Shown here piece after piece: positions 3,631 to 60,579 of a stretch of DNA of 64,000 nt. The notes beneath the pieces are model-generated. The model was not told where the DNA came from. It was given only the letters and a program-made list of their open reading frames with translations, and did not search any database. Position numbers and translations under genes: made by a program. The stretch is from NCBI GenBank assembly GCA_011176685.1, contig DUED01000050.1:1-64000 (forward strand), given 5' to 3'. The DNA comes from Anaerolineae bacterium. GTDB taxonomy: Bacteria > Chloroflexota > Anaerolineae > Anaerolineales > Anaerolineaceae. The stretch's first letter is position 1. Each line of letters begins with the position of its first letter.

Positions 3631-3669
3631 GTCAAGCCCCCAAATTTAGTACCACTCATAAGTAGACAC
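3631..3669 (+). repeat. left inverted repeat of the IS3-family element
   Basis: Reads in to ATAAGTAGACAC at the inner end. It matches the reverse complement of 4773-4811 with a perfect 12-base inner block (ATAAGTAGACAC), a shared TAGTACCA block and a C-rich outer block. Confidence 0.8.
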
Positions 3670-4462
3670 TTTCGAGATTAGAAGAAAATTCATAAGGGGT
3701 TTTATTCCCTAAAGCAGCATAGGGACGAATGGAATTGTATTCCTGCAACCACTCAAATGTGATCCTCCTGGCTTCATCCAACGAATTGAATAAATACGCG
3801 TCTAACACATCTTCGCGATACGTGCGATTGAAGCGCTCAACAAACCCGTTTTGAGCGGGTTTGCCAGGTTGAATAAAATGAATCTGAATTGCATGTCTCC
3901 TTGCCCATGCAGCCATATGATGGGAGATGAATTCTGGCCCATTATCCACCCGGATCTGGGCAGGATATCCCCGCCATACTGCCAGCATGTCCAATACCCT
4001 GGTCACCCTGGCTGCCGGTAAGGACAGGTCAATCTCAATCCATAATGCCTCACGATTGAAATCATCCAGCACATTGAATGTGCGAAATGCCCGTCCATTA
4101 TCCAGACTATCACTCATGAAATCCAATGACCAGCACGCATTGGCCCTTTCAGGTTGGATCAATGGCTGAGGATCCCGGGTTGGAAGCCGCTTTTTGGGTT
4201 TCACTCGTATATTCAGTCCCATTTCACAGTAGATGCGATACACTTTCTTGTGATTCCATTGATTTCCCTGTTTTCTCAGGTAAGCCGCCATCTTCCTGAA
4301 CCCCCAGCGATGATGATCTTTAGCTATCTGGGCAAGCTTGCCCTTGATCTCATCGTCATTGGGTTTCTTTCTCACATACCGGTAACCACTTCGGCTGAGA
4401 GCAGCCAAGCGGCAAGCCCGACGCTCACTGGTTTGGTGTGCTTCGATGGCATAGTTGGCCAT
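3656..4462 (-). CDS. IS3-family transposase orfB, DDE integrase core
   Basis: The catalytic half of the transposase: an HTH_21-like N-terminus (RSGYRYVRKKP, HHRWGFRKMAAYLR) and an integrase core with the three acidic residues in LDFMSD, VDNGPEF and FVERFNRTYRED. It cuts and joins element ends during transposition. The 268-residue frame from the first ATG is a minimum. By -1 frameshifting at 4495-4489 it would be made as an OrfAB fusion, reading AVKPDARRK before this Met. It appears complete, running into the left inverted repeat. Confidence 0.92.
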   Translation of the reverse strand: MANYAIEAHQTSERRACRLAALSRSGYRYVRKKPNDDEIKGKLAQIAKDHHRWGFRKMAAYLRKQGNQWNHKKVYRIYCEMGLNIRVKPKKRLPTRDPQPLIQPERANACWSLDFMSDSLDNGRAFRTFNVLDDFNREALWIEIDLSLPAARVTRVLDMLAVWRGYPAQIRVDNGPEFISHHMAAWARRHAIQIHFIQPGKPAQNGFVERFNRTYREDVLDAYLFNSLDEARRITFEWLQEYNSIRPYAALGNKTPYEFSSNLESVYL

Positions 4463-4482
4463 CTTGCGCCGTGCGTCGGGCT

Positions 4483-4749
4483 TTACAGCTTTTTTGCTAC
4501 TATGTCCTTCAATATCTTGTGATCTAAACTCAATTCCGCATACATTTGTTTCAACCTTCGGTTTTCTGTCTCTAATTCCCGCAAATGCTTCAGCTCATGC
4601 ACGTCCATACCCCCATATTTTGATTTCCACTTGTAGTAGGCGGATCGACTAATTCCATGTTCCCGGCATATATCCGTGATCGGTACCCCGGATTCTCCTT
4701 CATTGAGGATTTTGATGATTTGGCTTTCGCTGTACCTGCTCCTTTTCAT
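4483..4749 (-). CDS. IS3-family transposase orfA, helix-turn-helix
   Basis: An 88-residue protein with a helix-turn-helix (residues 8-48, SQIIKILNEGESGVPITDIC then GISRSAYYKWKSKY) that binds the element ends, and a C-terminal Leu/Glu/Arg coiled coil (about residues 52-85) used for multimerisation in this family. It ends at TAA just after the slippery sequence, as expected for an orfA with programmed frameshifting into orfB. Confidence 0.9.
   Translation of the reverse strand: MKRSRYSESQIIKILNEGESGVPITDICREHGISRSAYYKWKSKYGGMDVHELKHLRELETENRRLKQMYAELSLDHKILKDIVAKKL
4489..4495 (-). other. programmed -1 frameshift site A-AAA-AAG
   Basis: In the orfA frame the codons are GCA AAA AAG CTG TAA. The heptamer A AAA AAG allows tandem -1 slippage into the orfB frame, giving GCA AAA AAA GCT GTA. 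This is the standard arrangement in IS3-family elements. Confidence 0.8.
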
Positions 4750-7162: not shown

Positions 7163-7562
7163 ATATTTACTCTCCTTTGCTCACGCTCCAGCTTATTCTG
7201 CACCAAATGGCAGCACTTGAGCTATGGTCACTCACATCCTCCATAGAATATTGCTTTCAATAGGAACTCGCCATACTGCGATTTTACCCTGATATTCTAT
7301 GAAAGCACTCTTGCCGACAGAATAGCTTTATCCTGAAAACATTTAAAGTTCATGATTAATAAAAAGCCAGACCAATACCAAAAAACATCATTTTATATAC
7401 AGAAAATCCCATACTAGTAAAGAGAATTATGTGTTTGTCTTCTTTTTATTAGTCTTATTCTAGGGAACCCTTACCAAAGGTGTCCTTAAAACCCCTTATA
7501 AGATATCAATTTATTACAATTATGTAATTTTAAGCAATAGAGAGTTGCAGGCTGGTGCTGAT
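7163..7562. other. intergenic stretch, no gene seen
   Basis: About 400 bases between two minus-strand units. It should hold the promoter of the lipoprotein operon and the 3' end of the acyl-cluster transcript. I see no hairpin with a T-run, no tRNA and no plausible ORF. Confidence 0.4.
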
Positions 7563-9743
7563 TCATTTAATCGGCAAAGCATCAATGAGGTCCTTTGTCT
7601 TAAATTTTTCAATATATTCGCGGATTTCCCAATAGTCTAAATCCAATTCCTCCGCAATCTCAAAGATGGAACGATCCCCCTCAAACCTGAGAAATATTTT
7701 CTCTAAAGCCAAATTCAATGGTTTATTAACCCTCCAGTCAACCCATAAACCATAACCCGAGAGAAAGATTGGGCCTTTGAACTTTCGCTTTGGCACATAG
7801 TTTGTTGCAAAAATACGAATAATCTCTTCAACAATATCGGCCATTTCAACTAATTTTTTCTCGCGAATAATATCCAAATTGTCATCACTTGTATGGTACT
7901 CATCATATGGCCAGCGGCTTATGGATATACACGGGATATTCACTCCAGGCCCATTAATGACCATTTCATCATTGCCAACTACATTACGGAATCCATCCTC
8001 AAAGTATTTTTTATCCCGCTCTTTGATCACCTTTCTCGCTATACGATCAATCAGGTGACTATCCTGCCGGGAGCGCTGCAATGCTATTCGGTTATTATTG
8101 CCCGCCATCTCGATAAAAATCCCTCCCCTTATTTTCGGAATTATTTCCTCATGCTGGCTAAAATAGCTAATACTCCCTATCGTTTCCGGGCAGAAAAGAA
8201 AACGAATGTCCATTGAACCAGCAGGCAAAGGGGTTTCTTTCAATCTTTTTGCTACTTCCATAGCTACAGCTACACCTGAAGCATCATCATTGGCAAGATT
8301 TGGATGACATACATGCGTGCAGATGAGTATTTCTCCGTTATCTGGTTGTCGATCCCCTTCAGGATTAACCATCAACGTAGCAGTTTTCAATCCTTTTTCC
8401 GGGACAGTCGAAAATACTGACCGAATCACAACATGGTATTCCACATCACGTGGTAATTTCTCAAATAAGTCTTTACTGAGACAAAAACCCCAACCACGCT
8501 CATAATATTTAAATTCCCAGGGAATAGCCCCCGGGCGCTTCTCTGAGTAGTGCAGGTGCGGCTCAAGTTCTGCCCAAGATATGCTTTTATCTATTGCTAT
8601 CGAATATGAGACCAAATGAAGAGGATTATTTTTTACATCTATCACCCTTTCCCCATTTGGTGTCTCTAAATAAGCTTCATTTACAACATAGCGCTCAGGG
8701 ATACGCCATGTCCATACTGGATATGTCGAGCGATACGTCTCAAGGCAAAATTCTCCAATTCCTTCAAGATCCTCCTTGATGAACTCAAATGCTCGATTTA
8801 TACCTTCAGAAACCAATGCACGGTTCAGAGGGAATATTTCTGCGACAGTATCCTTGATTTTCCTTTTTTCTTTCTTCAACCTGCCATTTCTAAATATTTG
8901 CTTTAAATCATCTTTTTTCTCTATTGAACCTGAACGCTCTTGATGAACAATAACTTTCAGTTCCTTAGGTGGTTTCTCAATTAAAAAATAGGGGTCTTCA
9001 CATAACACCTTGGCTGTTTCACGATAAACATCTTGACACTTGACCTGCAAGATAACCCCACCATCCACTTCAACCTGTTTCATGCAACCTGATTGCAGCA
9101 ATCTCTGTGACATTGGCTGCAGTGCAACGGTGACGTTTCTATCAAGATAACGCACAAAAAAATCAAACGTATCGATATATTTTTTAATCCCATCGAACAC
9201 TTCACCGGTAAAATATTTTTTATAGCGGTAGTCAACATTCATCTGCTGCTCTACATAATGAATGAAAGTACAATAATCAAAGGTTGTATTAAAAAATAAT
9301 AGCTTGGAATCTGAATGAAAAAGACGATCGAAGACTGAATCTTTCCCGAAAGATGATTTGCTGACTTTATCGCAAATCGTATGCGCCTGGCCGCCTATCG
9401 CTGCAAATGAAAATATCGGGTGAAAAGAACGAACGGCATGCGGATTACGGCGAATGTGGTTAGTAAAAAACCCTACTGTAGAAGGAGTAGACAGATGATT
9501 ATAGGGTTTCCCTTTACAAAAATCATAGGTGAATGTGGGCACTATCAATGTGCCGCTTTCCCCTAACACGGCTTCAAAACATGACTGAAGAAACTGCAAA
9601 GCTTCCGCCCAACTCTCAGCACCGCTCAGTTTCATTGCTAAAGTGGAATCACTATGTACTAATACAATATCGCCGGAATTCACTCCGGCTTGTTTTAATA
9701 AGTCGATGACCTTTGCCTTCTTCTCCTGCATACCCTCAATCAA
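7563..9743 (-). CDS. AAC(3)-family acyltransferase fused to DUF4910/DUF2172 aminopeptidase-like protein
   Basis: A 726-residue fusion. Residues ~10-265 match the AAC(3)-type N-acyltransferase family (VLVHSDSTLAMKL, PTFTYDFCKG, VRSFHPIFSFAAIG). Residues ~310-640 match DUF4910/DUF2172, an M28-like zinc aminopeptidase fold, with putative metal ligands in THVCHPNLANDDASG, FCPETIGS and DEYHTSDDN. The last ~75 residues look like a winged helix (FEGDRSIFEIAEELDLDYWEI), as is usual in that family. The TTG start is supported by GGAGG seven bases upstream. It is the last gene of the ACP/ketosynthase operon, so it may acylate an amine with the operon's acyl-ACP and trim or release the product. That role is inference, and this is not evidence of aminoglycoside resistance. 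Confidence 0.8.
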   Translation of the reverse strand: MIEGMQEKKAKVIDLLKQAGVNSGDIVLVHSDSTLAMKLSGAESWAEALQFLQSCFEAVLGESGTLIVPTFTYDFCKGKPYNHLSTPSTVGFFTNHIRRNPHAVRSFHPIFSFAAIGGQAHTICDKVSKSSFGKDSVFDRLFHSDSKLLFFNTTFDYCTFIHYVEQQMNVDYRYKKYFTGEVFDGIKKYIDTFDFFVRYLDRNVTVALQPMSQRLLQSGCMKQVEVDGGVILQVKCQDVYRETAKVLCEDPYFLIEKPPKELKVIVHQERSGSIEKKDDLKQIFRNGRLKKEKRKIKDTVAEIFPLNRALVSEGINRAFEFIKEDLEGIGEFCLETYRSTYPVWTWRIPERYVVNEAYLETPNGERVIDVKNNPLHLVSYSIAIDKSISWAELEPHLHYSEKRPGAIPWEFKYYERGWGFCLSKDLFEKLPRDVEYHVVIRSVFSTVPEKGLKTATLMVNPEGDRQPDNGEILICTHVCHPNLANDDASGVAVAMEVAKRLKETPLPAGSMDIRFLFCPETIGSISYFSQHEEIIPKIRGGIFIEMAGNNNRIALQRSRQDSHLIDRIARKVIKERDKKYFEDGFRNVVGNDEMVINGPGVNIPCISISRWPYDEYHTSDDNLDIIREKKLVEMADIVEEIIRIFATNYVPKRKFKGPIFLSGYGLWVDWRVNKPLNLALEKIFLRFEGDRSIFEIAEELDLDYWEIREYIEKFKTKDLIDALPIK

Positions 9744-9808
9744 TTATTAACCTCCATCATTTATAACAGTGGAAATGAAAACCTGTCGATTGCAGTAAAA
9801 ACAAACTA

Positions 9809-10762
9809 TTACTGTCCACATATGATTTCACAGACCTTTTCTAATTCCTCACATTTACCAAAATTAATACCATTACTCCCAGGAATAATTCTCCTGCCCA
9901 AACCACTTAATACTTTTCCCGGTCCCACTTCAATATAGTAATCCACTCCTTCATTATGCATATTCTGGATTGACTGCCGCCACTTAATAGGTCCACACAG
10001 CTGCTGCCGTAATTCAGATTTGATATCCTCTGGTGATGTAATTGGCTTTGCAGTTGTATTTGCATAAACGGGAACCTCGGCTCGTTCTAATGAGACCTCT
10101 TCTAGAAAGATATCAAATTCTTCCTGGGCAGGCCCCATTAAAGTCGTGTGACACGCAACGCTAATTGCCAAACGTTTAATCATTTTCCCGCCGATTTCTT
10201 TATAATTGTTTTCAAACTCTTCCAATGCTTTAATGTGCCCGGATATTACAACCTGCCCTGGACAATTGTCATTTGCTATTGAAAGAACTAATCCCGAGCT
10301 CTTCGCGATCTCTTGACAACGTTTATCAACTCGCTCACTTGTTGCGCCTATCACTGCCAGCATACCCCCTTGGGCTTGTTCGCCTGCTTCCTTCATCAAC
10401 CGCCCACGTTCACGCACCAACTTGATTGCATCCTGAAATTTTAAAGCACCTGAAACCACAAGCGCAGTATATTCTCCAAGGCTGTGCCCTGCCAATACCT
10501 GTGGCTGAAATGTGCAGTCGCAATTCTCTTTTATTACTTGGTATGCTGCATAGCTGGCGGTCAGGATTGCTGGCTGGGCATTATGCGTTTCATTAAGAAC
10601 TTCCCTGGGCCCTTTAAAACATTTTTTCTTAAGGTCAATTCCCATAATATCATTTACTTCATTGAAAACCTCTCTTGCAACAGGATAGCTCTCAAATAAA
10701 TTTAATCCCATGCCAACATATTGAGAACCCTGACCAGGAAATAATAAAGCAAATTCAATCAT
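9809..10762 (-). CDS. fabD: malonyl-CoA:ACP transacylase
   Basis: A 317-residue malonyltransferase that moves malonyl groups from CoA to acyl carrier protein. FPGQGSQYVGMG lies at residues 8-19, the active-site serine is Ser94 in GHSLGEYTAL, and the partner His is in VACHTTLMGPA (about residue 201). The length is normal for FabD. It lies between ketosynthase III and the AAC(3) fusion, so it may be a pathway-specific copy rather than the housekeeping one. The window holds no other fab gene set to compare with. Confidence 0.9.
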   Translation of the reverse strand: MIEFALLFPGQGSQYVGMGLNLFESYPVAREVFNEVNDIMGIDLKKKCFKGPREVLNETHNAQPAILTASYAAYQVIKENCDCTFQPQVLAGHSLGEYTALVVSGALKFQDAIKLVRERGRLMKEAGEQAQGGMLAVIGATSERVDKRCQEIAKSSGLVLSIANDNCPGQVVISGHIKALEEFENNYKEIGGKMIKRLAISVACHTTLMGPAQEEFDIFLEEVSLERAEVPVYANTTAKPITSPEDIKSELRQQLCGPIKWRQSIQNMHNEGVDYYIEVGPGKVLSGLGRRIIPGSNGINFGKCEELEKVCEIICGQ

Positions 10763-10774
10763 TTTCGATACTTA

Positions 10775-11809
10775 TTACACCCAGGAAACTTTTACCAGAC
10801 CGGCAGCCCAGGATAAACCCACTCCAAAGCTGACAGTTGCAATACGCATAGATGGCTTAAGTAATCTTTTTAAGCCAGAACGCGCCAGGGCGATTGGAAT
10901 AGTACAGCTAACTGTGTTTCCGATATCCTCTAAATCAATGATAAATTTTTCCGGATCTATTTTCGACTGTCTGCGTAGATAATCCAACATAAATTTATTC
11001 GCCTGGTGGAACACAAACATATCAATATCATCCTTGGAGAAACCTGTCTTTTCAAGAAGCGACTTGATCATCTTTGGCACTACTTTAAGGGTAAAAGAAA
11101 ATATGGACGGCCCATCCATGAACAAATAGTTTGGGGAAAATCCTCCTTTTGAGTCGTTACCATTCTCTATCTCTGCTTTCTCTATAGACGGATGACGAGC
11201 ACCACCAGCCTTTACAATTAAGCTCTCCGCACCAGCCCCATCTGTACCGTATACAAAAGGTCCAATGAATTCAATATCTGCTTGATTTATATCCACTGCT
11301 TTGATCAGAGTGGCTGTTCCTGCGTCACCAAAAATCGTACGCACATTCTTGTCCATCGGATGCATGTGCTTGCTGTATGTGTTTCCATTCATTAATAGAA
11401 CATTTTTCGCAGAGCCTGTTTCAATTAATCCCTTCACCAGAGAAAGGCCATACACAAATCCCGAGCACCCAAGATTGAAATCAAACGCGCCTGCTGATTG
11501 AGGAATACCTAAACGCTCCTGGATTAAACAGGCAGAAGTAGGCAAAGGGTAATCGGGGCTTTGTGTGCAAAAAATGACCATATCAATCTCATCAGCACTA
11601 AACTTTCCTTCCTTAATGAGCTTCTCTGCCGCTTTCACCGCCAAATCCGCAGCCGTTTCGTTCTCCGCAGCAATATGTCTCTTTCGAATACCAGTCTTTT
11701 CAAATATTTTTTTCGGTGACCATTCTGGGAATAACTTTGACAGTTCTTCATTATCAACAACTTTTTCAGGTAAATAATAATCAATTGCAGCTATCTGCGC
11801 CTTCCTCAT
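10775..11809 (-). CDS. 3-oxoacyl-ACP synthase III-like ketosynthase
   Basis: A 344-residue thiolase-fold ketosynthase of the FabH family, which condenses an acyl-CoA starter with malonyl-ACP. The catalytic Cys115 is in FNLGCSGFVYG, the His in VFHQANKFM and the Asn in EDIGNTVSCTIP. The GIRKRHIA region also fits the family. The longer start at 11821 is unlikely: its first codons contain the GGAGG that sits five bases before the ATG at 11809. It directly follows the reductase gene and is probably translationally coupled. The starter unit is unknown. Confidence 0.88.
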   Translation of the reverse strand: MRKAQIAAIDYYLPEKVVDNEELSKLFPEWSPKKIFEKTGIRKRHIAAENETAADLAVKAAEKLIKEGKFSADEIDMVIFCTQSPDYPLPTSACLIQERLGIPQSAGAFDFNLGCSGFVYGLSLVKGLIETGSAKNVLLMNGNTYSKHMHPMDKNVRTIFGDAGTATLIKAVDINQADIEFIGPFVYGTDGAGAESLIVKAGGARHPSIEKAEIENGNDSKGGFSPNYLFMDGPSIFSFTLKVVPKMIKSLLEKTGFSKDDIDMFVFHQANKFMLDYLRRQSKIDPEKFIIDLEDIGNTVSCTIPIALARSGLKRLLKPSMRIATVSFGVGLSWAAGLVKVSWV

Positions 11810-11821
11810 ATAAACCTCCAT

Positions 11822-12583
11822 TTACTGCGCGGTATATCCACCATCCACAACCAGGGTTATTCCTGTAATCCACCTGGCTGCATCCGAAAGAAGAAAAGCC
11901 ACTGAATTAGCAACATCTTCCATCTCCCCCAAACCCAAAGGATGCCTGTCAATCAACTGCCTAATCTGGGTCTCATTCCATTTTTTCATTAACTTATCCA
12001 GCATCGGCGTTCTTATATAAGCTGGAGCAACGCAACTCACGCGGATATTACGAGGAGCAAGCTCCAGCGCTAATGAACGAGCTAAGCCCTCTAATGCTGA
12101 TTTGCTGAGCGAATACACACTAATGCCCGGCAAACTCACCCGTCCCATTACCGAGGAAATAAACACAATGGAACCACCTTTTTTATCTTTCATCGAATTT
12201 TTTTGAAACGCTCTCGCTAAAAAAAGCGCCGATTCCGTATTCGTCTTTATTAGTTCTTCGAATTTCTGTGGTTTTTGTAATTGAAGTGGAAGAGTGTACT
12301 GCACACCTGCAGAATGCACTAAGCCATGTAATCTGCCATGTTCTTCTACAAGCGAATTAAACCACTTGCCTATTTCTTCTGTTTCTTGCAAATCAAATGG
12401 CGCAATTACGTGCTGATTGCCTTCTAATTGTGAGCAAGTCTCATTCAAACGATCTACATTTCTTCCAGAACAAATAACTTGGGCTCCTAACCTGCTCAAA
12501 AAGATCGCTATGGCACGTCCAATACCAGAAGACGCTCCCGTTATGATTACACGCTTCCCTTCAAGAGACATCGGATTAATCAT
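11822..12583 (-). CDS. short-chain dehydrogenase, probable 3-oxoacyl-ACP reductase
   Basis: A classical SDR of about 253 residues: a TGASSGIG nucleotide-binding loop, a basic residue after the second strand (ICSGRN) that suggests NADP(H), NAG in HSAGVQ form, and the catalytic set Ser-Tyr-Lys in ISSVMG and YSLSK. It ends in VVDGGYTAQ. The operon context (ACP, ketosynthase III, malonyltransferase) suggests reduction of a 3-oxoacyl-ACP to a 3-hydroxyacyl-ACP. The ATG at 12583 has GAGGGA upstream and is preferred to the TTG at 12607. Confidence 0.82.
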   Translation of the reverse strand: MINPMSLEGKRVIITGASSGIGRAIAIFLSRLGAQVICSGRNVDRLNETCSQLEGNQHVIAPFDLQETEEIGKWFNSLVEEHGRLHGLVHSAGVQYTLPLQLQKPQKFEELIKTNTESALFLARAFQKNSMKDKKGGSIVFISSVMGRVSLPGISVYSLSKSALEGLARSLALELAPRNIRVSCVAPAYIRTPMLDKLMKKWNETQIRQLIDRHPLGLGEMEDVANSVAFLLSDAARWITGITLVVDGGYTAQ

Positions 12584-12678
12584 GATTATTCCCTCTTTAT
12601 CAATCAAAAATATTTAGGCCAATTTGCTTGGTCAAGTTGTTAACTTTCTTACCCAAATTTCATATTTAGGTTCTTAAG

Positions 12679-12909
12679 CTATTCAAGTTTGTCCCCTATC
12701 AAATCAAACAATTCTCCAAATGTTTTTGCTTCCTGAACCTGATCACCCTCCACAACAATGCTAAAATTTTCCTCGGCAAAAGCAATGAAACTCATAATCG
12801 CCATTGAATCCCATTCTTCAACATCCTTAATTGGCTTGCTATTACTCAACAATCCTTTTTCGATGCCGATCAACTCCTCCAATTCTCGATAAGCTTCAGT
12901 CCTTTTCAT
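12679..12909 (-). CDS. acyl carrier protein
   Basis: A 76-residue acidic acyl carrier protein. The phosphopantetheine attachment serine is Ser35 in EEWDSMAIMSF, where the usual LDSL has become WDSM, a form common in specialised ACPs of secondary or cell-surface pathways. Three to four helices are predicted, as usual. It is the first gene of the minus-strand acyl operon, with the SDR following after about 95 bases, and it probably carries the acyl intermediate for the whole cluster. Confidence 0.88.
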   Translation of the reverse strand: MKRTEAYRELEELIGIEKGLLSNSKPIKDVEEWDSMAIMSFIAFAEENFSIVVEGDQVQEAKTFGELFDLIGDKLE

Positions 12910-13105
12910 ATTTCTCCTTAGTTTATTAGTATCAACAGAGTTTCATATCCGCTATTCAAAAATAAGTTGTGCCTATTTTACCTTGAAATTAAATTTGCTG
13001 GCTTTTATTACAGAATAAAAGATCAATACAGCAATCCTGGAATAGCGAGAATAGCATTACCATGCTATAAAAGACCATGCCCTCATACCGGAAACAAGGT
13101 CCTAA

Positions 13106-13771
13106 ATGCGCAAAAACCTACAGAAGCTAGTTTACCGTCAACAAATCAATAAAATGGTCGCATATATCCAGCACCACCTTAGTAAACCAATCCGGCTTGA
13201 GAAACTGGCAGACATCGCTGGTTTCTCCCGTTTTCACTTCCACCGCATATTCACAGCTTTTGTAGGCGAGACGCTGGGTGAATATACACGCCGTCTGCGC
13301 CTGGAGAAAGGCTGTTTAGAGCTGCTCTACACTCAACGTCCCGTAACCGAGATCGCACTTTTGATCGGCTATGAGACTCCCGCGGCTTTTGATGTCCTAT
13401 GCAGCTACCTCACCAAAAATAATTTATGGAGCAAAGTGGGAGTTTGTTTGAGCATCTACCCAGATGATCTCAACCTGACACCTCCTGAAGAATGCCGCTA
13501 TGATGGCGGATTTGTGTTGAAAGAAGGTGTTGACATTCAACCAGAAGGCGAGGTACAAATACAAACTATCCTGGGAGGTAAGTACGCCATTTTTCTGCAT
13601 AAAGGACCATACGAAACTCTCTGGCAAACCTGGAATGCCATCTATCGTGACTGGCTGTCCGCCAGCGGCTTGAAGCTGCGCGATGTGATTCCCTATGAGG
13701 TTTATTTGAAGGACAAGCAAAAGACCAAGCCTGAAGACCTGCTTACGGAAATACACCTGGCAATCGAATAA
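13106..13771 (+). CDS. AraC-type regulator with GyrI-like domain, internally deleted
   Basis: A 221-residue protein with an AraC first helix-turn-helix (residues 15-60, LEKLADIAGFSRFHFHRIFTAF) and the start of the second (VTEIALLIGYETPAAF). It then jumps to the C-terminal part of a GyrI-like ligand-binding domain (TPPEECRYDGG, FLHKGPYETLWQTW, DVIPYEVYL). Full AraC-GyrI proteins are roughly 60-80 residues longer. The end of the second helix-turn-helix, the linker and the first GyrI strand are missing in frame. DNA binding is probably impaired, though it remains an intact frame. Convergent with degV. Confidence 0.75.
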   Translation: MRKNLQKLVYRQQINKMVAYIQHHLSKPIRLEKLADIAGFSRFHFHRIFTAFVGETLGEYTRRLRLEKGCLELLYTQRPVTEIALLIGYETPAAFDVLCSYLTKNNLWSKVGVCLSIYPDDLNLTPPEECRYDGGFVLKEGVDIQPEGEVQIQTILGGKYAIFLHKGPYETLWQTWNAIYRDWLSASGLKLRDVIPYEVYLKDKQKTKPEDLLTEIHLAIE

Positions 13772-13790
13772 GCCGCTCTTCCCAACAAAC

Positions 13791-13817
13791 AAGCCCTGGA
13801 CTAAAACCCCAGGGCTT
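13791..13817. terminator. hairpin terminator between convergent genes
   Basis: A 9-base-pair stem AAGCCCTGG/CCAGGGCTT with a 9-base loop lies just after the regulator stop. The following sequence is moderately T-rich. It is positioned to serve both the plus-strand regulator and the minus-strand degV. Confidence 0.6.
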
Positions 13818-13845
13818 GTATCTCATTTCTGGTAACTAAATGGTC

Positions 13846-14685
13846 TTATTTCGCTTTTATACAAGCCAGTCCAATTGCTCCCGGGCCGGTATGCACACCT
13901 ATGATAGGCGTAGCTTCAACAATCCAGGGATCATAATCTAGAAAAAGAGTCTTTTGAAGAAAACGGGTAAATTGTTGAGCTTTCTGTTCTGCATTGGTGT
14001 GTATCACTCCAAGCTCCTCTAAAGGCCCTAATTTTTTAATGTGTGTAATGATGCGTTCAATTGCCTTTTTTGCTGTCCTCACTTTTTCTATCTTAATAAT
14101 TCCCTTATGAAGGTGTAGTATCGGACGGATGTGCAGCAGGTCAGCAATCCCTGCAACCAATCCGGGCACGCGCCCACTCCGCTTCAAGAATTCCAGAGTA
14201 TCTATTGCTGCATAAACATGGGTCCGGGAATCTTGTTCCTTCAAGACCTCTAAAATTTTTTCTACACTGCATCCCTCCAGAGCAGCCCGAGCTGCGGCTA
14301 CCACGAGAAATCCTAGCCCCATTGATAGGGACCCAATCTCCATTACAATTACTTTTATATTCTTTGCTATTTCTCCCGCCAATCGGGCAACATTTGCCAG
14401 ATTGCTTAATTTGTTAGTTATATGAACAGAAACGATATGTGTGGCACCTTCCAGCGCAAGCTTATGATAAACATTTTCAAATATGCCCACTCCTGGCGCT
14501 GATGTCTTCGGATAGGTGCTGAATTTGGGTAACCTTTTATAAAATTCCTCCCTGGTGATTTCAACTTCATCCAAAAAAGATTGCTCGCCCACATTGATAT
14601 AATCGGGCACAATGGAGATGCCAAGTTTGCGGATGATATCCTTCGGAAGGTCACAGGTGCTGTCAGTAACAATGCGTATGTTCAT
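13846..14685 (-). CDS. DegV family fatty-acid-binding protein
   Basis: A DegV protein of about 279 residues: an N-terminal IVTDSTCDLP motif, the PKTSAPG segment and a C-terminal VEATPIIGVHTGPGAIGL stretch. Homologues bind one fatty acid between two alpha/beta domains and act with fatty-acid kinase in exogenous fatty-acid use. No FakA gene is nearby. The upstream start at 14733 is rejected because AAGGA sits six bases before the ATG at 14685, where the family's conserved N-terminus begins. Confidence 0.9.
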   Translation of the reverse strand: MNIRIVTDSTCDLPKDIIRKLGISIVPDYINVGEQSFLDEVEITREEFYKRLPKFSTYPKTSAPGVGIFENVYHKLALEGATHIVSVHITNKLSNLANVARLAGEIAKNIKVIVMEIGSLSMGLGFLVVAAARAALEGCSVEKILEVLKEQDSRTHVYAAIDTLEFLKRSGRVPGLVAGIADLLHIRPILHLHKGIIKIEKVRTAKKAIERIITHIKKLGPLEELGVIHTNAEQKAQQFTRFLQKTLFLDYDPWIVEATPIIGVHTGPGAIGLACIKAK

Positions 14686-18263: not shown

Positions 18264-18665
18264 TTATTCTGCCATTACTGGCCGGAATTTATAGCTGTAG
18301 ATCAACATTCCCCGCTCGTCGCCGTCCTCGCGGATGCGCCGAGTTACCATTTCTACCGGCGTGCCAATCTTCACTCCCTTTTCATCTAAATCTGTTAGTT
18401 GGGCTGTAACCACAGGCCCTTCCTCTAGCTTGACAAGTGCAACTGTATAGGGAGCGTTGCGTTCAAAACCAGCCGGAACGCTGTGCATCCTTGTAAATGA
18501 AAAGACTTTACCCTTGCCGCTGAACTTAAATGACTCTTTCGCTTCACCGCCGCATTGTGGGCACACATCGCGTGCTGGAAATATCCTCGCTCCACAGTGC
18601 GGACACGTTTCCCCTACTAGCGCATAACGCTGCTTCCTCAAACGCCAATGTCTCGGAACTTCCAT
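18264..18665 (-). CDS. DUF35 zinc-ribbon/OB-fold protein, thiolase-HMG-CoA synthase partner
   Basis: A 133-residue protein with a rubredoxin-like zinc ribbon (CPHCG at about 21-25 and CPQCG at about 35-39) and an OB fold (KGKVFSFTRMHSVPAGF, APYTVALVKLEEGPVV). In archaea such a protein bridges acetoacetyl-CoA thiolase and HMG-CoA synthase so that the intermediate is channelled. Here it follows those two genes, supporting the same role. A gap of ~190 bases separates it from the thiolase gene, so it may have its own promoter. AAGGAG lies ten bases before the ATG. Confidence 0.85.
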   Translation of the reverse strand: MEVPRHWRLRKQRYALVGETCPHCGARIFPARDVCPQCGGEAKESFKFSGKGKVFSFTRMHSVPAGFERNAPYTVALVKLEEGPVVTAQLTDLDEKGVKIGTPVEMVTRRIREDGDERGMLIYSYKFRPVMAE

Positions 18666-18852
18666 AAACTAGTAATTCTCCTTTACAAATAAGCTTTTAC
18701 TAAGCGCTACCTAGTTTAGGCAAGTAAAGCTATCAGAAGCTATCAAATTAATAAATTGATAGGTATTGGCAGTCAATGTTATTAGATTAGGAAAACCTTC
18801 AGGTAAAATGTTCTTTGGGCAATTTTTAGATAGCGCGATCATAAATCGCTCT

Positions 18853-20010
18853 TTATAAACGCTTTAATACATATGTAACAGAGCTAGCAGCGGAGCCACC
18901 TAGCGCCTGCACCAACGCCATTTGTGCGCCTTTTATCTGATTCTTACCTGCCTGTCCACGCAGCTGCATAACGGCATCCACCACCTGATACACACCTGCT
19001 GCGCCTAAGGGAAAACCGCGCGCTTTCAATCCGCCCATAGTAGCAATCGGCAGCTCCCCTTCCAGACTCAGCATGCTATTTTTCAACAGTTTCCATCCCT
19101 CTCCGCGCCTGGCAAAACCAGCCGCTTCCAGAGAAAGAACAACGTATATCGAGAACGCATCCCAGGTCTCAAAGAAATCCATTTGCTGAATACCCACACC
19201 CGCTTTTTCTAAAGCCGCTTGCGTGGAAATACGCACAGCATCAAATGCCAGGAGGTCAGCACGGTCATGCAACGCCAGAGCATCAGTGTTAAAACCAATC
19301 CCGGCAACCTCCACCATAGGATGAGAGCCATTGGTTGGTGCTAGTTCTCGCCTGGTGAGGATTACAGCCGCTGCTCCATCTGCATAAGGGGCAATATCCA
19401 GAAGGTTGAGCGGCTCGCAAACCACCGGCGCTTTTCGATATGCCTCGCGGCTGATAGCACGCTGATACATTGCTTTGGGATTGTTGATGGCGTTTTCGTG
19501 AGCAATAATCGCAAGATCAGCAAAAACATCTCGTTCAACGTTATATTGATGTATATAGCTGTTCATCAGCAATGCCGCCTGACCAGTAGGCGTCAAACCC
19601 TCTACAGCTTCAAAATCGTAGTCACTGGATTGTGCCAGTAGTGTTTCCATTTCCTGACCGACCACATCGGTGACCTTTTCTACTCCCACCACCAGCGCCA
19701 CATTCACAAAACCCGAGCTCACAGCCAGATAGCCCATACACAGGGCCGCCGCACCAGATGCTTCTCCGGCTTCTGCTGAAATTGCTTCAATGCCATCCAA
19801 ACCAACATTACCCGCCAGCAAAGCCCCCAGGTTTGCTTGATGGGAAGCGACAGAAGCCAGGAAATTGCCTACGTACATTGCCTGTGGTTTCAATCCGCCT
19901 GAATCTGCTATTGCTTCACGTATAGCCAGTGCGGAAAGGTTTCTCAAGGAAAGCTGCCAGTGTTCGCCTACCGGTGTTTGTCCAATGCCAGCAATAACCA
20001 CTTCTTGCAT
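18853..20010 (-). CDS. acetyl-CoA C-acetyltransferase, archaeal-type thiolase
   Basis: A 385-residue thiolase-fold protein of the SCP2/archaeal subfamily. It should condense two acetyl-CoA into acetoacetyl-CoA for the mevalonate pathway. Family features include VIAGIGQTPVGEHW at the start, EAGEASGAAALCMG near the nucleophile region (about residues 80-95), a mid-protein AAAVILTRRE and the C-terminal MGGLKARGFPLGAAGVYQ loop with conserved Gly and His/Lys positions. It follows the HMG-CoA synthase gene by 9 bases, as in archaeal operons. Confidence 0.85.
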   Translation of the reverse strand: MQEVVIAGIGQTPVGEHWQLSLRNLSALAIREAIADSGGLKPQAMYVGNFLASVASHQANLGALLAGNVGLDGIEAISAEAGEASGAAALCMGYLAVSSGFVNVALVVGVEKVTDVVGQEMETLLAQSSDYDFEAVEGLTPTGQAALLMNSYIHQYNVERDVFADLAIIAHENAINNPKAMYQRAISREAYRKAPVVCEPLNLLDIAPYADGAAAVILTRRELAPTNGSHPMVEVAGIGFNTDALALHDRADLLAFDAVRISTQAALEKAGVGIQQMDFFETWDAFSIYVVLSLEAAGFARRGEGWKLLKNSMLSLEGELPIATMGGLKARGFPLGAAGVYQVVDAVMQLRGQAGKNQIKGAQMALVQALGGSAASSVTYVLKRL

Positions 20011-20019
20011 GCGCTTTCC

Positions 20020-21114
20020 TTATTTCATTACAATCTTACCGCGGAATCGGGCATAAGTAGCGTAATCAATTTCTATCCTGCGTGCAATATACGCCGCTGT
20101 AGAAAGCGCTTTGTCCTTGCGCTCATCGACCAATTCAGTCACACGGATGTCCATGGCGTCTGAACCTGCACCAGAGCCAAACGAGACTGCCAGAATGCGG
20201 TCGCCGGGTTTGGCAATATCCAATACAGCGGTTAAGCCAATCAGCATTGCAGCCGCATAGGTATTACCTATCACGGGTGAAAGCAGTCCGGGCTTAATCT
20301 GCTCGTCCTTAAAGCCAAGCTGCCGCGCTACCCGCTGTGGAAATTTCATATTGGGTTGATGAAATACTACATAACTGTAATCCGCTGCATTCGTGCCTCT
20401 GGCTTCCATCAGCGTCTTAGCTGCATTTGTAATATGCTTGAAGTACGCTGGTTCGCCTGTAAAGCGCTGTCCATGTTCGGGGTATTTCTGATACGCCCTG
20501 CGCCAAAAATCTGGCGTGTCGGATACATACGAATAAACTGCCTGAATCTCTGCCAGTGAGTTTTCGGCTGGTCCAATGATAAAAGCCGCTCCCCCTGCGC
20601 CAGCTGTATATTCCAGTGCATCACCCGGCTTTGCCTGTGCAGTGTCAGCTCCAATTGCCAGCGCATAATTCGCCATCTGCGAGCCGACCAGCCCCATAGC
20701 AGCTACAACGGTTTCTGTGCCGGCTTTGCAGGCAAACTCGAAATCTGCCGCCTGGATATGCGGTACTGCCCCAATGGCTTCAGCCACGATAGTGGAACTG
20801 GGTTTGACAGCATAGGGATGTGATTCTGAGCCAATCCAAACAGCTCTCAGTTCAGCAGGATCAACTTCAGCGCGCGCCAATGCATTACGTGCTGCCTCGA
20901 TCGAGATCGTAACAACATCCTCATCTAACCCCGCTACGGCTTTTTCTTTAATCGGCAATCCACCCACTGAATCTTTCCACACCCGCGCTACTTCCTTTGC
21001 AGGCAAACGGTACTGCGGAATATACGACCCATACCCGATAATACCCACCGGGCGCAATGGTTTCAATAATAGGGAACTTTTGCTCTCTGCTTCTGGCTTC
21101 ACTTTCGGTTCCAA
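20020..21114 (-). CDS. hydroxymethylglutaryl-CoA synthase, archaeal type
   Basis: A 364-residue thiolase-superfamily enzyme that joins acetyl-CoA and acetoacetyl-CoA into HMG-CoA. The [15 protein letters not shown] start after a short basic leader, [10 protein letters not shown], the catalytic cysteine in [12 protein letters not shown] (about residue 130) and [12 protein letters not shown] with the catalytic His are all of archaeal type. Its first bases overlap the end of the HMG-CoA reductase gene, indicating translational coupling. Length is normal for the archaeal form and shorter than eukaryotic or Gram-positive MvaS. Confidence 0.9.
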
Positions 21115-22376
21115 TCCTTCAATATTTCAATTGCACGATAAATTTGGATATTTCTTTCTTTGATCATCTGCTCTGCTATTGGAGCGACTAACTCGGACGG
21201 CGCTCCGGCTGATACTGCCACCTGGCGCGCATGTAAAGCCATATGCCCGCGCTGAATGCCCTCCGTTGCAAGCGCGCGCAATGCTCCCAGGTTTTGCGCC
21301 AGCCCAACTGAGACAATGATTTCTGCCAGCTCGCCAGCCGTTTTGACACCCATCAACTTCAGCGCAGCTTGCGCTCCCGGATGCACCTTGGTCGCGCCCC
21401 CAACAATACCGACTGCCATAGGCATTTCCAGCTCACCCACCACATCACCATTTTCATCCTTTGTCCACCTGCTCAGACTGGTATAGCGCCCACCACGAGC
21501 AGCATAGGCATGTGCACCCGCTTCTACAGCCCGCCAGTCATTACCTGTGGCTATCACAACTGCGTCCACTCCGTTCATAATACCTTTATTATTGGTAGCC
21601 GCGCGGTAAGGGTCGGCACTTGCAAAAGCCCAGGCTGCAATAATGCCATCGCGCACCTGCTCTCCCCTGAAATCCTTAAAAGCCAGTGCCGCCACAGGAA
21701 TAGTGCAGCGTACTTTCGCCAGCCGTCTATCTGCCAGGTTAGAAAGGATGCGCAGCAGCGCCTTGCCGCCAGTGATCTGCTCCACAAAGGGTGCCAATTC
21801 TTCCAGCGCGCTGTTGACGGCATTAGCGCCCATAGCATCACGCACGTCATAAATCAGATGCATGACCAGAAAACTACCAATGGGAGAATCAGCAATAATG
21901 CGCACCTCGATATCACGCGCTCCGCCACCTAACCGCTGCAAAACGGGATCAACCCGTGTGGCTCTTTGCAACAGCTCCTCTTTGTGCTCAAGGATATGCG
22001 CCTTCGCTTTTGGCAGGTCAGCCACCTCTAATATCTGTATCTGCCCAATCATCTCTGGTGCAGAGGATTCAGCCATGAAGCCCCCGCCAGCTTGGGCAAG
22101 CTTGGCCATGTAAGAAGCCGCCGCTACAACCGATGGTTCTTCTACCACCATAGGCACTGGCACTTCACGACTATTTATCACAAAATGCTGTGCAATGCCC
22201 AGCGGCAGCGCATAGGTGCCGACCACATTCTCAATCATGAAGTTTGCCTGCTCAGCAGTGAGCCCGGCAGCACCGCCCAATGCCTGCATGTCTTGCAAGG
22301 AGATGCCAGCAGTCTTCTGCAGCACCTGCAGGCGTTCTTTAATACTCAATTGATGAAATTTACGTTTCTTTACCAT
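21099..22376 (-). CDS. mvaA: hydroxymethylglutaryl-CoA reductase, class II
   Basis: About 425 residues, reducing HMG-CoA to mevalonate (or the reverse). Class II signatures are the [17 protein letters not shown] start, the substrate-binding [14 protein letters not shown], the dinucleotide-binding [12 protein letters not shown], the catalytic Lys in NNKGIMNGV and a C-terminal His in GHMALHAR. The ATG at 22376 starts the conserved [11 protein letters not shown] sequence; the upstream frame to 22439 is hydrophobic noise with no ribosome binding site. It is first in the mevalonate operon. Cofactor preference cannot be told by eye. Confidence 0.9.
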
Positions 22377-22465
22377 TATCCAATATACTCTGTCAGTCCA
22401 GCTAAAAGCGGGATTGATAATAACAAATAAAACTGGCAAAAGCTCTCAAACCATAGCTGTCTGCT

Positions 22466-31472: not shown

Positions 31473-33080
31473 CTATATCTTCCCCTCCCCCCACACATCC
31501 GCGATCTTTTCTTTGATCTTCCCATCATATATTTCTATCAGCTTCTTACTCCCTTCCACTACATTTCGCTCTGCTTCAATTTGATCAATAATTTCTTTTT
31601 GAGTTTGAATGGGTGGGTGAGGGATTTTTAATTCTGAAATTTGTTTAAGAGAAAGATTATATTGAGCAACCCCTACTTTTAAATTAATCAAAGATTTTTG
31701 AATTAAATCGGATTTTAATACGTAAAATAAATATTTCTCGGAAATTTTTGAATTTTCTTCCAATCTTATAATAGATAAGGCTTGATTCGTATTTGCTGGC
31801 AGAATATCTGCTGTAACTAAAGCTACTCTTCCCAACGCACCAGCAATTGAAAATAATACATCTCCTTCTTTAATTCTTGATCTATTTAATGATTCATCAC
31901 ATTCTTGATTAATATAAGCAAACTTGTTTTTTAGAAAATTTCCTGAATTTGTAATTGATTCTATTTTAATAAAATTTATGCCTTCTTCCTCAAATTTGAA
32001 ACCTTTTGTTGTTGGCGTTGTTCCTTTAGTTATTTTTTCACACACCTCTCCCAACTTCACCATCTCCCACTCCGGATCAATCTTTATCCTCGGCTTCCAG
32101 TTCTCCACCACCTGCCGCGCCCCGTCAATCACCTTCTGATACTGCTCAATCTCCGCTACGATTTGCTCCTGAACCTCAAGTGGTGGAAGAGAAATTGTTA
32201 TGTTTGCCAAGAAATCTCTTCTTATTCCTTTAACTCCCAATCCCTGTGCGTTTTGCATTAAATAATCAATTTTGTAATTTATAAGATGATATAGAAATGG
32301 AGAAATAATCTTCTTAGGATCACTACATAATCCAGTTAAGTCCTGATTAATTGCATACTCATTATCTGTAAGAGCTATTTTTCCAACAGAGACACGAGTT
32401 ACAACTATTACTTCATTATCTGGAATTATATTTGTTGATGATTTTTTTACAGCTTCTTTTGTTATTAACTCGTAACCAACAATCTTTTGTTCTTGAATAT
32501 GTTTTGCTGAAATCCACCTTATTGACCCATTTTCCCAATAGGTCTTATTCGCCCTAGAGGGTGTTCCTCCACCAATTAATTCACAAATATCCCCCAACTT
32601 CACCATTGGCCATTTTTGATGTAGGTAAATAGAGGTTTGCTTATAGCGATCAATATTAAGGTTGAAATCACCGCTCTCTGCAATCTTGGCTTTAGGTACT
32701 AATAATTCAAGTTTGTTTTCTTTTTTCTTTTGTGCTGATTCATTTTTGGCTAGCCCAATTTTGTACTGCCTAATGATTTCCAGTACTTCTGGCAGGTCAC
32801 TTTTATCAATGGGATTTCTCTGTGCGCCCAGGTCAAATCCATCATTTTCTATTTTCAAAAATAGAATATCTTTGGCTCTTTGCGCCAGGCGGCGGTCAAT
32901 TAACAAAATGCTGGTCTTTACCCCGCTGTAGGGATGGAACACACCTGCTGGCAGCGATACAACCGCATAAAGATATCCATCCTCAATCAATGTCTTGCGC
33001 AGCTGCTTATAAGCATTCGATGATTGAAAGATGATACCTTCCGGCACTATCACGCCCGCCTTTCCGCCCGGCGTCAGGTG
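31473..33080 (-). CDS. HsdM C-terminus fused to type I specificity subunit HsdS (after an amber codon)
   Basis: The frame continues that of the gene upstream past a TAG at 33083-33081. Its first ~150 codons are the end of a type I N6-adenine methylase (GVIVPEGIIFQSSNAYKQLR, GVKTSILLI). It then carries two target-recognition domains, each opening with a paired motif, WPMVKLGDICELI and WEMVKLGEVCEKI. So hsdM and hsdS appear to be one fused gene, here split by the amber. If made alone, translation would need an internal GTG near 33053, giving specificity domains with a useless methylase stub. Confidence 0.8.
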   Translation of the reverse strand, partial: HLTPGGKAGVIVPEGIIFQSSNAYKQLRKTLIEDGYLYAVVSLPAGVFHPYSGVKTSILLIDRRLAQRAKDILFLKIENDGFDLGAQRNPIDKSDLPEVLEIIRQYKIGLAKNESAQKKKENKLELLVPKAKIAESGDFNLNIDRYKQTSIYLHQKWPMVKLGDICELIGGGTPSRANKTYWENGSIRWISAKHIQEQKIVGYELITKEAVKKSSTNIIPDNEVIVVTRVSVGKIALTDNEYAINQDLTGLCSDPKKIISPFLYHLINYKIDYLMQNAQGLGVKGIRRDFLANITISLPPLEVQEQIVAEIEQYQKVIDGARQVVENWKPRIKIDPEWEMVKLGEVCEKITKGTTPTTKGFKFEEEGINFIKIESITNSGNFLKNKFAYINQECDESLNRSRIKEGDVLFSIAGALGRVALVTADILPANTNQALSIIRLEENSKISEKYLFYVLKSDLIQKSLINLKVGVAQYNLSLKQISELKIPHPPIQTQKEIIDQIEAERNVVEGSKKLIEIYDGKIKEKIADVWGEGKI

Positions 33081-33992
33081 CTACAGGATGTAATCCACAA
33101 ACAGCACCTCTGAGCGCTTGGAGCGTATCCCAAAGCGCTTGTGCGGCTGGATGCCGCCTTTGGGCGACATGAAGGGCGGATTGGTCAGGATGCAGTCAAA
33201 AACATCATTCCAGCGCTCCAGACTCGTCAACGTGTCATATTCATATATCTGCGGGTCGGGGAATTGGTGCAGGTACATGTTCACCAGCGACATGCGCACC
33301 AGGTCCTGTGAGATGTCATAGCCCATAAAATTCTTGGTCAACTGCTTACGCTCGTTGATAGTTAATGCGCTGCCGGCATGCTCCGAACCCGCTTCGGTGT
33401 TTTCTCTCAGGATATGCTTGTAGGCGGAAATCAAAAATCCGGCTGTGCCGCAGGCTGGGTCCAAAATCCTATCCGTTTTCAATGGTGCCACCGCCTCTAC
33501 GATGAAATCAATGATATGGCGCGGTGTGCGGAACTGCCCTGCGTCGCCCTGTGCACCCATCACTGACAGTAGATACTCATAGGCGTCCCCCAGGTCCTCG
33601 CTGTGTTCATACTCAAATTCATTGATGCCCTTCAGGAACTGGTCAACTGTGGCTGCATCGCGGAAGGGCAAAAATGCACCTTTGAATATGTCCCGAAATA
33701 ACTGCGGGATGCCCGCGTTCAGGCTCATTTTCTCCAGCCCTTGCGAATAGAGTTTCACCCGTTCAAAAGCGGATATGCTGTGGTCCATGATGCGCTTCCA
33801 GGCATACTGCTCGTATTCGTCTCTGAAGAATGATTTCCCGCCCCATTCCTTGTTCTGCTCATCAATGTCTGACATGAACTTATAAATAAGTGCCAGCGTG
33901 ATTTGTTTAACCTGTTCAGTTGGCACAGGAATCTTGCCAACCAGCAGGTCACGCAGGTTGTCAATTCTTCGTTTAATTTCTCCGTTCATCAT
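33081..33992 (-). CDS. hsdM: type I restriction-modification methylase HsdM, N-terminal part (amber-truncated)
   Basis: 303 residues ending at a TAG: an HsdM N-terminal helical domain (1-130) and most of the N6-adenine methylase domain. Motif I is LDPACGTAGF (177-186) and the catalytic motif IV is NPPF (271-274). The protein stops at DYIL, just before the conserved HLTPGGKAGVIVPEG segment, which is present in the same frame after the amber codon. Loss of the C-terminal part should abolish methylation unless the codon is read through or is a sequencing error. It starts 12 bases after hsdR. Confidence 0.85.
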   Translation of the reverse strand: MMNGEIKRRIDNLRDLLVGKIPVPTEQVKQITLALIYKFMSDIDEQNKEWGGKSFFRDEYEQYAWKRIMDHSISAFERVKLYSQGLEKMSLNAGIPQLFRDIFKGAFLPFRDAATVDQFLKGINEFEYEHSEDLGDAYEYLLSVMGAQGDAGQFRTPRHIIDFIVEAVAPLKTDRILDPACGTAGFLISAYKHILRENTEAGSEHAGSALTINERKQLTKNFMGYDISQDLVRMSLVNMYLHQFPDPQIYEYDTLTSLERWNDVFDCILTNPPFMSPKGGIQPHKRFGIRSKRSEVLFVDYIL

Positions 33993-34004
33993 GCTAGTTG
34001 TATT

Positions 34005-57493: not shown

Positions 57494-58879
57494 TCATTTT
57501 CCAAATTTTTCCCAATACGAGCCGAAAATTACTTCTTCATTAGGAACAATTGGATCAATAGGTTTTGATACCCAGGTAATATTAACAAAATGCTTCCAAG
57601 TGATGTTTTCTGTTGTAATATTGCCCCCCCATGTTCCGCAGCCTAATGTTAATGAGAATGGCATGCCATTATCATAATTTCCACTATTGGCATAACTTTG
57701 AGGTTGCCTAACCATCATACGACTAACATGTGCCTTTGTAGCTAATTCCAATATATGCTCATCATTATTTGAATGAATACCACATGAGTGTCCATACCCG
57801 CTGTATTTTATTATGGCCTGAAGTATATCGATAGCTCCAGAAAATTCTTTAAATTTCCAAAGTGTCAGCACCACAGAAAGTTTTTCGCCAGAGAACAGGT
57901 CAGACTCGCCAGGACTGTCTCCCAATACCATAAAGAACGTTATGCCTTCTGGAATCTCAACTCCCATTATTTTCGCAATTATTTGTGGGCTTTGTCCAAC
58001 AATTTTCTTGTTCAAATGCTTACCATCTGGCCAAAGTGCTTTCTTAAGCAGCTCCTTTTCCTCTTTAGTACAAAGATAGCCACCATAGGATTTAAAATTT
58101 TCCAGCATTTCTTCAAAAATATCCTCTTGAATTATGGCAGAATTCTCAGATGAGCAGGAAGTAGCATAATCAAAGGTCTTTCCTAGAAAAATTTTTTGCG
58201 CTGCACTTTTTAAATCTGCCGTGTCATCTACTATAGTTACAGCATTACCAGCGCCCACGCCAAAGGCAGGAGTTCCGCTCGAATAAGCAGCCTTTACCAT
58301 CCCTGCCCCACCAGTTGCGACAATCAAATCAACTTCACGCATTAACTCTTGAGTAAGCTCAATCGTTGGCTCTTTAATGCACTGAACTAAATCCTCAGGA
58401 GCACTGACCCTTTTTAAACCCTCTCGCATAAATTTGACTGTTAATGCACAATTTTTCTTCGCTCTAGGATGTGGGGCAAATATAACTGCATTTCTCGTTT
58501 TAATTATTGGCAGACCGTTTACACCAACTGATGAGGTCGGATTAGTAACTGGTGTTAAAGCTCCGATTACACCTACGGGTTTAACAATCTTGATTAAACC
58601 TTTTGCTTTATTCTCTTCAATGACACCGACGGTTTTTAGACCATGTAGATCACGCAGGGTACCTAAAATCTTCTTCTGGTGCTTTAATACTTTATCTTTG
58701 TAAATACCCATTCCTGTTTCTTCAAACGCCAGTTGCGCGCATGCCTCGGCATTATCTCGCTCATATATTTCCCAACCAACAGATGCGATCATTTCGTCAA
58801 CCTTCTCTTGAGGCCAAAATTCTACAACGGCTTGAGCTTTGCGGGCTTTCTCAACTAGTGTCTTTATTTTATCTGACAT
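57494..58879 (-). CDS. CoA-acylating aldehyde dehydrogenase, sulfoacetaldehyde dehydrogenase-like
   Basis: About 461 residues, of the EutE/AdhE-N/SauS class that makes acyl-CoA from aldehyde, CoA and NAD(P)+. The catalytic cysteine is Cys242 in DYATSCSSENSAI, and IGALTPVTNPTSS is the cofactor entry loop. The stretch QSYANSGNYDNGMPFSLTLGCGTWGGN recalls sulfoacetaldehyde dehydrogenases (SauS/SqwD) more than AdhE. It lacks an N-terminal microcompartment tag. ATG 58879 is preceded by GAGGTG. It is the last gene of the transketolase operon and would yield sulfoacetyl-CoA if the cluster handles a sulfosugar; acetyl-CoA is the alternative. Confidence 0.8.
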   Translation of the reverse strand: MSDKIKTLVEKARKAQAVVEFWPQEKVDEMIASVGWEIYERDNAEACAQLAFEETGMGIYKDKVLKHQKKILGTLRDLHGLKTVGVIEENKAKGLIKIVKPVGVIGALTPVTNPTSSVGVNGLPIIKTRNAVIFAPHPRAKKNCALTVKFMREGLKRVSAPEDLVQCIKEPTIELTQELMREVDLIVATGGAGMVKAAYSSGTPAFGVGAGNAVTIVDDTADLKSAAQKIFLGKTFDYATSCSSENSAIIQEDIFEEMLENFKSYGGYLCTKEEKELLKKALWPDGKHLNKKIVGQSPQIIAKIMGVEIPEGITFFMVLGDSPGESDLFSGEKLSVVLTLWKFKEFSGAIDILQAIIKYSGYGHSCGIHSNNDEHILELATKAHVSRMMVRQPQSYANSGNYDNGMPFSLTLGCGTWGGNITTENITWKHFVNITWVSKPIDPIVPNEEVIFGSYWEKFGK

Positions 58880-58917
58880 AATTTTCACCTCGATTCATCA
58901 TCCAAAACAACCTAAAA

Positions 58918-60577: not shown

Positions 60578-60579
60578 TG

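Follow-up and report, generated by a model that had tools for sequence, protein, structure and literature searches.

The window analysed here is a 64,000-nucleotide stretch of contig DUED01000050.1, contig 46 of a 2.08-Mb Anaerolineaceae-type metagenome-assembled genome (MAG) that is 88% complete. It carries a compact cassette of five minus-strand genes which, from position 12909 to 7563, encode an acyl carrier protein (ACP), a short-chain dehydrogenase/reductase (SDR), a β-ketoacyl-ACP synthase III (KAS III), the transacylase FabD and a protein in which an AAC(3)-type domain is fused to a DUF4910 domain (Table 1). An earlier note, made from the sequence alone, had proposed these genes, and their order and coordinates were confirmed by the open reading frames (ORFs) and by family scores far above chance. 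The intergenic gaps are small: ~70-95 bp between ACP and SDR, none between SDR and KAS III, 12 bp between KAS III and FabD, and 65 bp between FabD and the fusion. Shine-Dalgarno-like motifs precede the ACP (AAGGAG), the KAS III (GGAGG) and the fusion (GGAGG), the last followed by a likely TTG start at 9743. The sequence further places the likely true starts of SDR and KAS III slightly inside their ORFs. Scans for promoters and terminators returned chance-level signals only.

Table 1. The five genes of the cassette in the order in which they are read
Gene product	Positions in the window	Strand	Sequence features
ACP, 76 aa, dedicated, divergent	12679-12909	minus	EWDSM phosphopantetheine site; AAGGAG ribosome-binding site upstream
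SDR, predicted 3-oxoacyl-ACP reductase	11822-12607	minus	TGASSGIG and SYK motifs; likely start ATG ~12583
KAS III ketosynthase	10775-11821	minus	catalytic C119/H272/N302; likely start ATG ~11809
FabD, malonyl-CoA:ACP transacylase	9809-10762	minus	GHSLGE and catalytic His205
Fusion, 726 aa, AAC(3)-type N-half and DUF4910/DUF2172 M28-like C-half	7563-9743	minus	H162/E165 in the N-half; zinc ligands H480/D486/H617 in the C-half, with N482 and P519 at the lost catalytic places

The FabD scores 335 bits with TIGR00128 (cut-off 261) and the KAS III 273 bits with PRK09352 (cut-off 249), and the SDR matches Pfam adh_short_C2 at 7e-57. The catalytic motifs of the five proteins are intact, save for those of the peptidase-like half of the fusion. 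The ACP has no Pfam match and reaches only 23 bits with the NCBIfam ACP model, its DSM serine site being in place. A dedicated ACP and an SDR ketoreductase stand in one operon, as in vio-type cassettes. FabZ and FabI are absent from the cluster, in line with the earlier claim that dehydratase and enoyl reductase are lacking; a genome-wide search for these two enzymes was not made.

The same five-gene order recurs, at 49-68% identity, in one other genome found, the MAG of Pelolinea sp. E21, which also belongs to the Anaerolineaceae (Chloroflexota) and represents another genus than the window genome. The ACP is 51-53% identical to its positional counterpart in Pelolinea, with which it shares the EWDSM site, and the SDR is 59% identical to its Pelolinea counterpart, compared to 39% for the SDR of the Burkholderia glumae flagellin island and 36% for Escherichia coli FabG. 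No third copy was seen in the stretches read from the search set, which comprised 28 loci from a collection of 84,980 species genomes and 151 relatives. The earlier remark that this exact set is not a recognised system was thus fair, though the general scheme is known. In Pelolinea, the cassette lies directly downstream, in the same orientation, of a pel-like exopolysaccharide operon, for which the Gram-positive-type pel operon (pelDEADAFG) is the closest known system. The upstream genes encode a PelD-like protein that bears an epimerase domain, a 299-aa protein without assignment, a DUF2194 protein, PelF (340 bits, cut-off 100) and PelG. Gram-positive pel loci are known to have such an extended PelD with an epimerase domain, as well as accessory genes that immediately follow the operon (PMC7112168).

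Outside the phylum, the best match to the KAS III (51%) lies in the flagellin-glycosylation island of B. glumae pBGF3, as recorded in plasmid entries, between vioA and an ACP gene and downstream of the flagellin genes. After this ACP gene come another KAS III-like ORF, then an SDR and an acetyltransferase; this second KAS III-like ORF (L099, positions 13266-14096) is unannotated and, at 276 aa, covers the N-terminal part only. Besides that of Pelolinea, the nearest Chloroflexota KAS IIIs (49-50%) have a WbmS-like polysaccharide deacetylase and a hexapeptide transferase as neighbours, and a CMP-sugar transferase adjoins one further close KAS III (45%). In a maximum-likelihood tree built from a small sample of 20 rows, in which several inner forks are open, the KAS IIIs of the window and Pelolinea pair with support of 100/99 and are joined by that of B. 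glumae at 92/96. The clade that contains them (12 rows, 100/99) excludes E. coli FabH and two KAS IIIs from Anaerolineae fab regions. In addition, the protein fails the fabH model TIGR00747, with 242 bits against a cut-off of 292.1. On these sequence comparisons, the KAS III groups with the vio/polysaccharide type rather than with the FabH of fab operons.

The fusion consists of an AAC(3)-type domain (~aa 1-260) and a DUF4910/DUF2172 region (~aa 295-726). Residues 40-247 match Antibiotic_NAT with 111 bits (Pfam cut-off 25), and residues 299-647 match DUF4910 with 195 bits and contain an inserted DUF2172 (96 bits), both over their Pfam cut-offs. The nearest solved structures are that of AAC(3)-IVa for the N-terminal half and that of CA_C2195 (PDB 3k9t) for the C-terminal half. 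According to its structure paper (PMC4000134), CA_C2195 holds one zinc through His189, Asp195 and His324, and has both M28 catalytic residues replaced, by Ser191 and Pro225. Alignment to 3k9t places the zinc ligands at H480, D486 and H617 of the fusion, all invariant across 17 fused homologues, and the lost catalytic Asp and Glu at N482 and P519. As both M28 catalytic residues are replaced and the zinc ligands alone are kept, the C-terminal half is most likely peptidase-like in fold only, and a functional M28 peptidase was rejected. The earlier note had called the protein an AAC(3)-peptidase fusion; the fusion and its AAC(3) part stand, whereas the peptidase part does not. The AAC(3) half keeps H162 and E165, the histidine and glutamate of the TxxHxxE region, which are invariant among homologues, and its best score against the NCBIfam models of AAC(3) resistance enzymes is 61 bits versus a cut-off of 270.

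The AAC(3)-DUF4910 pair, fused or adjacent, is common among relatives, where AAC(3) is fused to DUF4910 or lies within 3 kb of it on the same strand at 27 of the 33 places with DUF4910. Neighbours of the pair in these genomes include NeuB, CTP_transf_3 and glycosyltransferases. Moreover, in Tritonibacter and Agrobacterium the pair adjoins the pseudaminic-acid genes pseB, pseC, pseI and pseF. DUF4910 is widespread in surface-sugar loci (PMC4000134). Nothing direct was found in the literature on AAC(3) in nonulosonic loci.

We consider it fairly probable that the five genes form a vio-type cassette for N-hydroxyacyl amino sugars, in which the AAC(3)-DUF4910 fusion would replace VioB and which brings its own FabD. 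In the proposed route, FabD would load malonyl onto the dedicated ACP. A single condensation of malonyl-ACP by the KAS III with a short acyl-CoA, in the simplest case acetyl-CoA, would yield 3-oxoacyl-ACP, which the SDR would reduce to 3-hydroxyacyl-ACP, most simply 3-hydroxybutyryl-ACP. The AAC(3) domain would then N-acylate an amino sugar with this hydroxyacyl group. The acceptor is probably a nucleotide sugar from which a surface polysaccharide or glycoconjugate is made; a nucleotide sugar is likelier than a finished exported polymer because an ACP-borne donor implies cytoplasmic transfer. The DUF4910 half, as a zinc-binding non-peptidase, may prepare or edit the N-acyl state of the sugar or hold the substrate; deacylation, transacylation and holding would all fit. 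We infer each of these reactions, the acyl chain, the use of ACP rather than CoA as the AAC(3) donor and the identity of the sugar. The order of one elongation, formation of 3-hydroxyacyl-ACP and transfer to an amino sugar follows by analogy with the Pseudomonas syringae viosamine island and wfpC-wfpG of Flavobacterium psychrophilum, considered below. The earlier note had suggested one elongation and one ketoreduction followed by AAC(3)-mediated acyl transfer to an amine, which is now the best-supported reading, given the KAS III relatives, the neighbours of AAC(3)-DUF4910 and the published parallels.

Amino-sugar precursors are probably present in the host cell, because another of its contigs (C3; L121, positions 7379-13328) carries in a row a UDP-GlcNAc 2-epimerase, a hexapeptide transferase, a DegT aminotransferase, a Gfo/Idh oxidoreductase and a UDP-sugar 6-dehydrogenase. 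This run resembles the UDP-2,3-diacetamido-uronic acid pathway. It could supply a diamino sugar; it has its own acyltransferase, however, nothing was found that ties it to the cassette, and this source was set aside. The host also encodes one phosphopantetheinyl transferase, one carboxyltransferase and sugar aminotransferases. Its DegT enzymes are encoded away from the window, on contigs C3, C7 and C9, and no aminotransferase adjoins the cassette.

Several points weigh against the hydroxyacyl-sugar assignment. The starter of the KAS III cannot be read from its sequence, and in this window the cassette has neither a glycosyltransferase nor a sugar gene as neighbour. Where the mechanism of an AAC(3) enzyme is known, the donor is acetyl-CoA, and an acyl-ACP donor is a prediction for this fusion. 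PelG was not found in the window's own 88%-complete genome, which leaves Pelolinea as the single genome with a Pel neighbourhood, and a Pel-tied role in this host is not supported. Most AAC(3)-DUF4910 pairs in Anaerolineae come without ACP, KAS III, SDR and FabD genes, and therefore the pair does not need them. The set itself is represented by two instances, one of them an incomplete MAG.

Pairs that lack the other four genes would be expected if the cassette were two independent modules, an AAC(3)-DUF4910 protein that stands in for PseH or WbpD and uses acetyl-CoA to N-acetylate an amino sugar, and an ACP/KAS III/SDR/FabD module that makes a hydroxyacyl group for another acceptor. Ketosynthase and ACP genes are missing beside most pairs in Pseudomonadota as in Anaerolineae, no pseH is annotated beside the Tritonibacter AAC(3)-DUF4910, and characterised AAC(3) enzymes use acyl-CoA. 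However, in both genomes, which belong to different genera, all five genes point the same way and are separated by short gaps only, and the ACP genes have no further acyltransferase beside them, which makes this division unlikely, although it is the strongest of the alternatives. Less likely still is a small secondary-metabolite or signal cluster, in which the acceptor of the hydroxyacyl group would be an amine other than a sugar, for example an amino acid or a polyamine. KAS III and ACP genes do occur with aminotransferases in plasmid metabolite clusters such as those of Deinococcus, an AraC/GyrI-like regulator lies next door, and no sugar genes adjoin the set in the window. Yet this regulator does not adjoin the set in Pelolinea, and carbohydrate loci hold the closest relatives of the KAS III as well as almost all neighbours of AAC(3)-DUF4910 whose context can be read.

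The earlier note had argued that, if the genes were the only copies of fabD, fabH, fabG and acpP in the genome, the cassette would be a housekeeping fatty-acid operon. The FabD is indeed the sole Acyl_transf_1 (AT) domain in the assembly, and the KAS III is its only true KAS III, the second match being the HMG-CoA synthase of a mevalonate cluster. By contrast, the ACP is not the sole one, since a second, lone ACP is encoded elsewhere, nor is the SDR the only member of its family. The step from sole copies to housekeeping also fails. A FabF-type synthase was not found in the 88%-complete assembly, where the sole PF00109 match is a thiolase (27-29 bits). Its absence is credible as a lineage trait, because 40 of 91 genomes from this family, counted from the profile-search table and including some that are 99-100% complete, also have no strong FabF-type match. 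With a sole KAS III and FabD and no FabF-type synthase found, the cassette would extend an acyl chain once rather than serve as a housekeeping operon. Reduced housekeeping synthesis, with these genes for initiation (E. coli groups the same types as fabH-fabD-fabG-acpP) and with the 12% that the assembly lacks hiding FabF, FabZ and FabI, is accordingly rejected as strongly disfavoured and very improbable, given that no FabF-type synthase was found here or, as a strong match, in many relatives, a KAS III outside the FabH group and an AAC(3)-DUF4910 fusion as the fifth gene.

Many of the family genomes that do bear FabF have it in one giant ORF of ~2,700-2,900 aa that also holds an acyltransferase domain, as in a type I synthase.

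Elsewhere in the window, an AraC-type helix-turn-helix protein with a GyrI-like domain (13106-13771) is divergent from the ACP gene, and an IS3-type transposase pair (two ORFs, 3656-4749) lies a few kb beyond the downstream end of the cluster. Positions 18264-22439 encode DUF35-like, thiolase-like, archaeal-type HMG-CoA synthase and HMG-CoA reductase proteins, a mevalonate-pathway cluster in a Chloroflexota genome. There is no evidence for a link of the cassette to these genes, their KAS III-like match being the HMG-CoA synthase. HsdS-, HsdM- and HsdR-like ORFs occupy 31473-36521, where 33081-33992 and 31473-33053 suggest an HsdM split between two frames. On the minus strand at 57494-63446, aldehyde dehydrogenase-like and RpiB/LacAB-like genes, a split transketolase (two ORFs), an SDR and a metallo-hydrolase look like a pentose/sugar catabolic operon.

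For the fusion itself, a more specific and rather speculative model is a two-site acyl-exchange enzyme, in which the zinc-bearing DUF4910 half would strip or transfer the acyl group of the amino sugar and the AAC(3) half would install a 3-hydroxyacyl group from the cognate ACP. No demonstrated reaction for DUF4910 was found in the literature, despite the crystal structure. If true, this exchange would give a function to DUF4910, unassigned since the structure paper of 2014, and an ACP-dependent use to the AAC(3) fold. In five genes, the cassette packs DUF4910, fused to its usual partner AAC(3), with a complete predicted acyl-supply route, a system small enough for joint assays of donor, transferase and DUF4910 step. 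The cassette further suggests that, where AAC(3)-like genes lie next to sugar loci, they may encode glycan-building acyltransferases rather than resistance enzymes.

The fusion shares the fold family and the TxxHxxE region with the AAC(3) aminoglycoside acetyltransferases AAC(3)-IVa, FrbF and YokD, but it scores far below the cut-offs for resistance enzymes and lies in a carbohydrate-locus context, and an aminoglycoside resistance enzyme was rejected on both grounds. With CA_C2195 of Clostridium acetobutylicum and its DUF4910 family it has in common the domains, the three zinc ligands and the loss of both M28 catalytic residues. The CA_C2195 locus also contains an ACP, N-acetyltransferases and a NeuB-type gene, whereas CA_C2195 is not fused to AAC(3) and the parts of the locus table consulted show no KAS III, SDR or FabD (PMC4000134).

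The earlier note had said that similar sets of ACP, ketosynthase and SDR genes occur in surface-polysaccharide loci and in small secondary-metabolite loci. Published parallels with structures or mutants support the reading as an amino-sugar cassette. The wfpC-wfpG genes of the F. psychrophilum O-polysaccharide locus encode two ketosynthases, a reductase, an ACP and a transferase of PglD-like type, which were assigned to the 3,5-dihydroxyhexanoyl group on Qui4N, seen by NMR (PMC6519341). This system likewise uses ketosynthase, reductase and ACP to place a short hydroxyacyl group in amide linkage on an amino sugar, but it has two ketosynthases and hence a longer chain, as well as a PglD-type transferase, with no mention of AAC(3) or DUF4910. 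In the viosamine island of P. syringae, vioS, vioR, acp and vioB were assigned to N-(3-hydroxy-1-oxobutyl)viosamine, which is lost upon deletion of vioR or vioB (PMC3927599). This island (vioA, vioM, vioT, vioS, vioB, vioR and acp), like the similar one on B. glumae pBGF3, combines a dedicated KAS III, ketoreductase, ACP and N-acyltransferase, as does the cassette. Compared to it, the cassette has no adjoining VioA, VioT or VioM and no flagellin gene nearby, and possesses its own FabD. Moreover, a hexapeptide N-acyltransferase of the VioB/PglD type is not found in the cassette, and the AAC(3)-DUF4910 fusion stands in its place. As two defining features, the VioB-type transferase and an aminotransferase in the locus, are missing, the cassette is, judged by gene content, a variant of the vio-type cassette and not a member.

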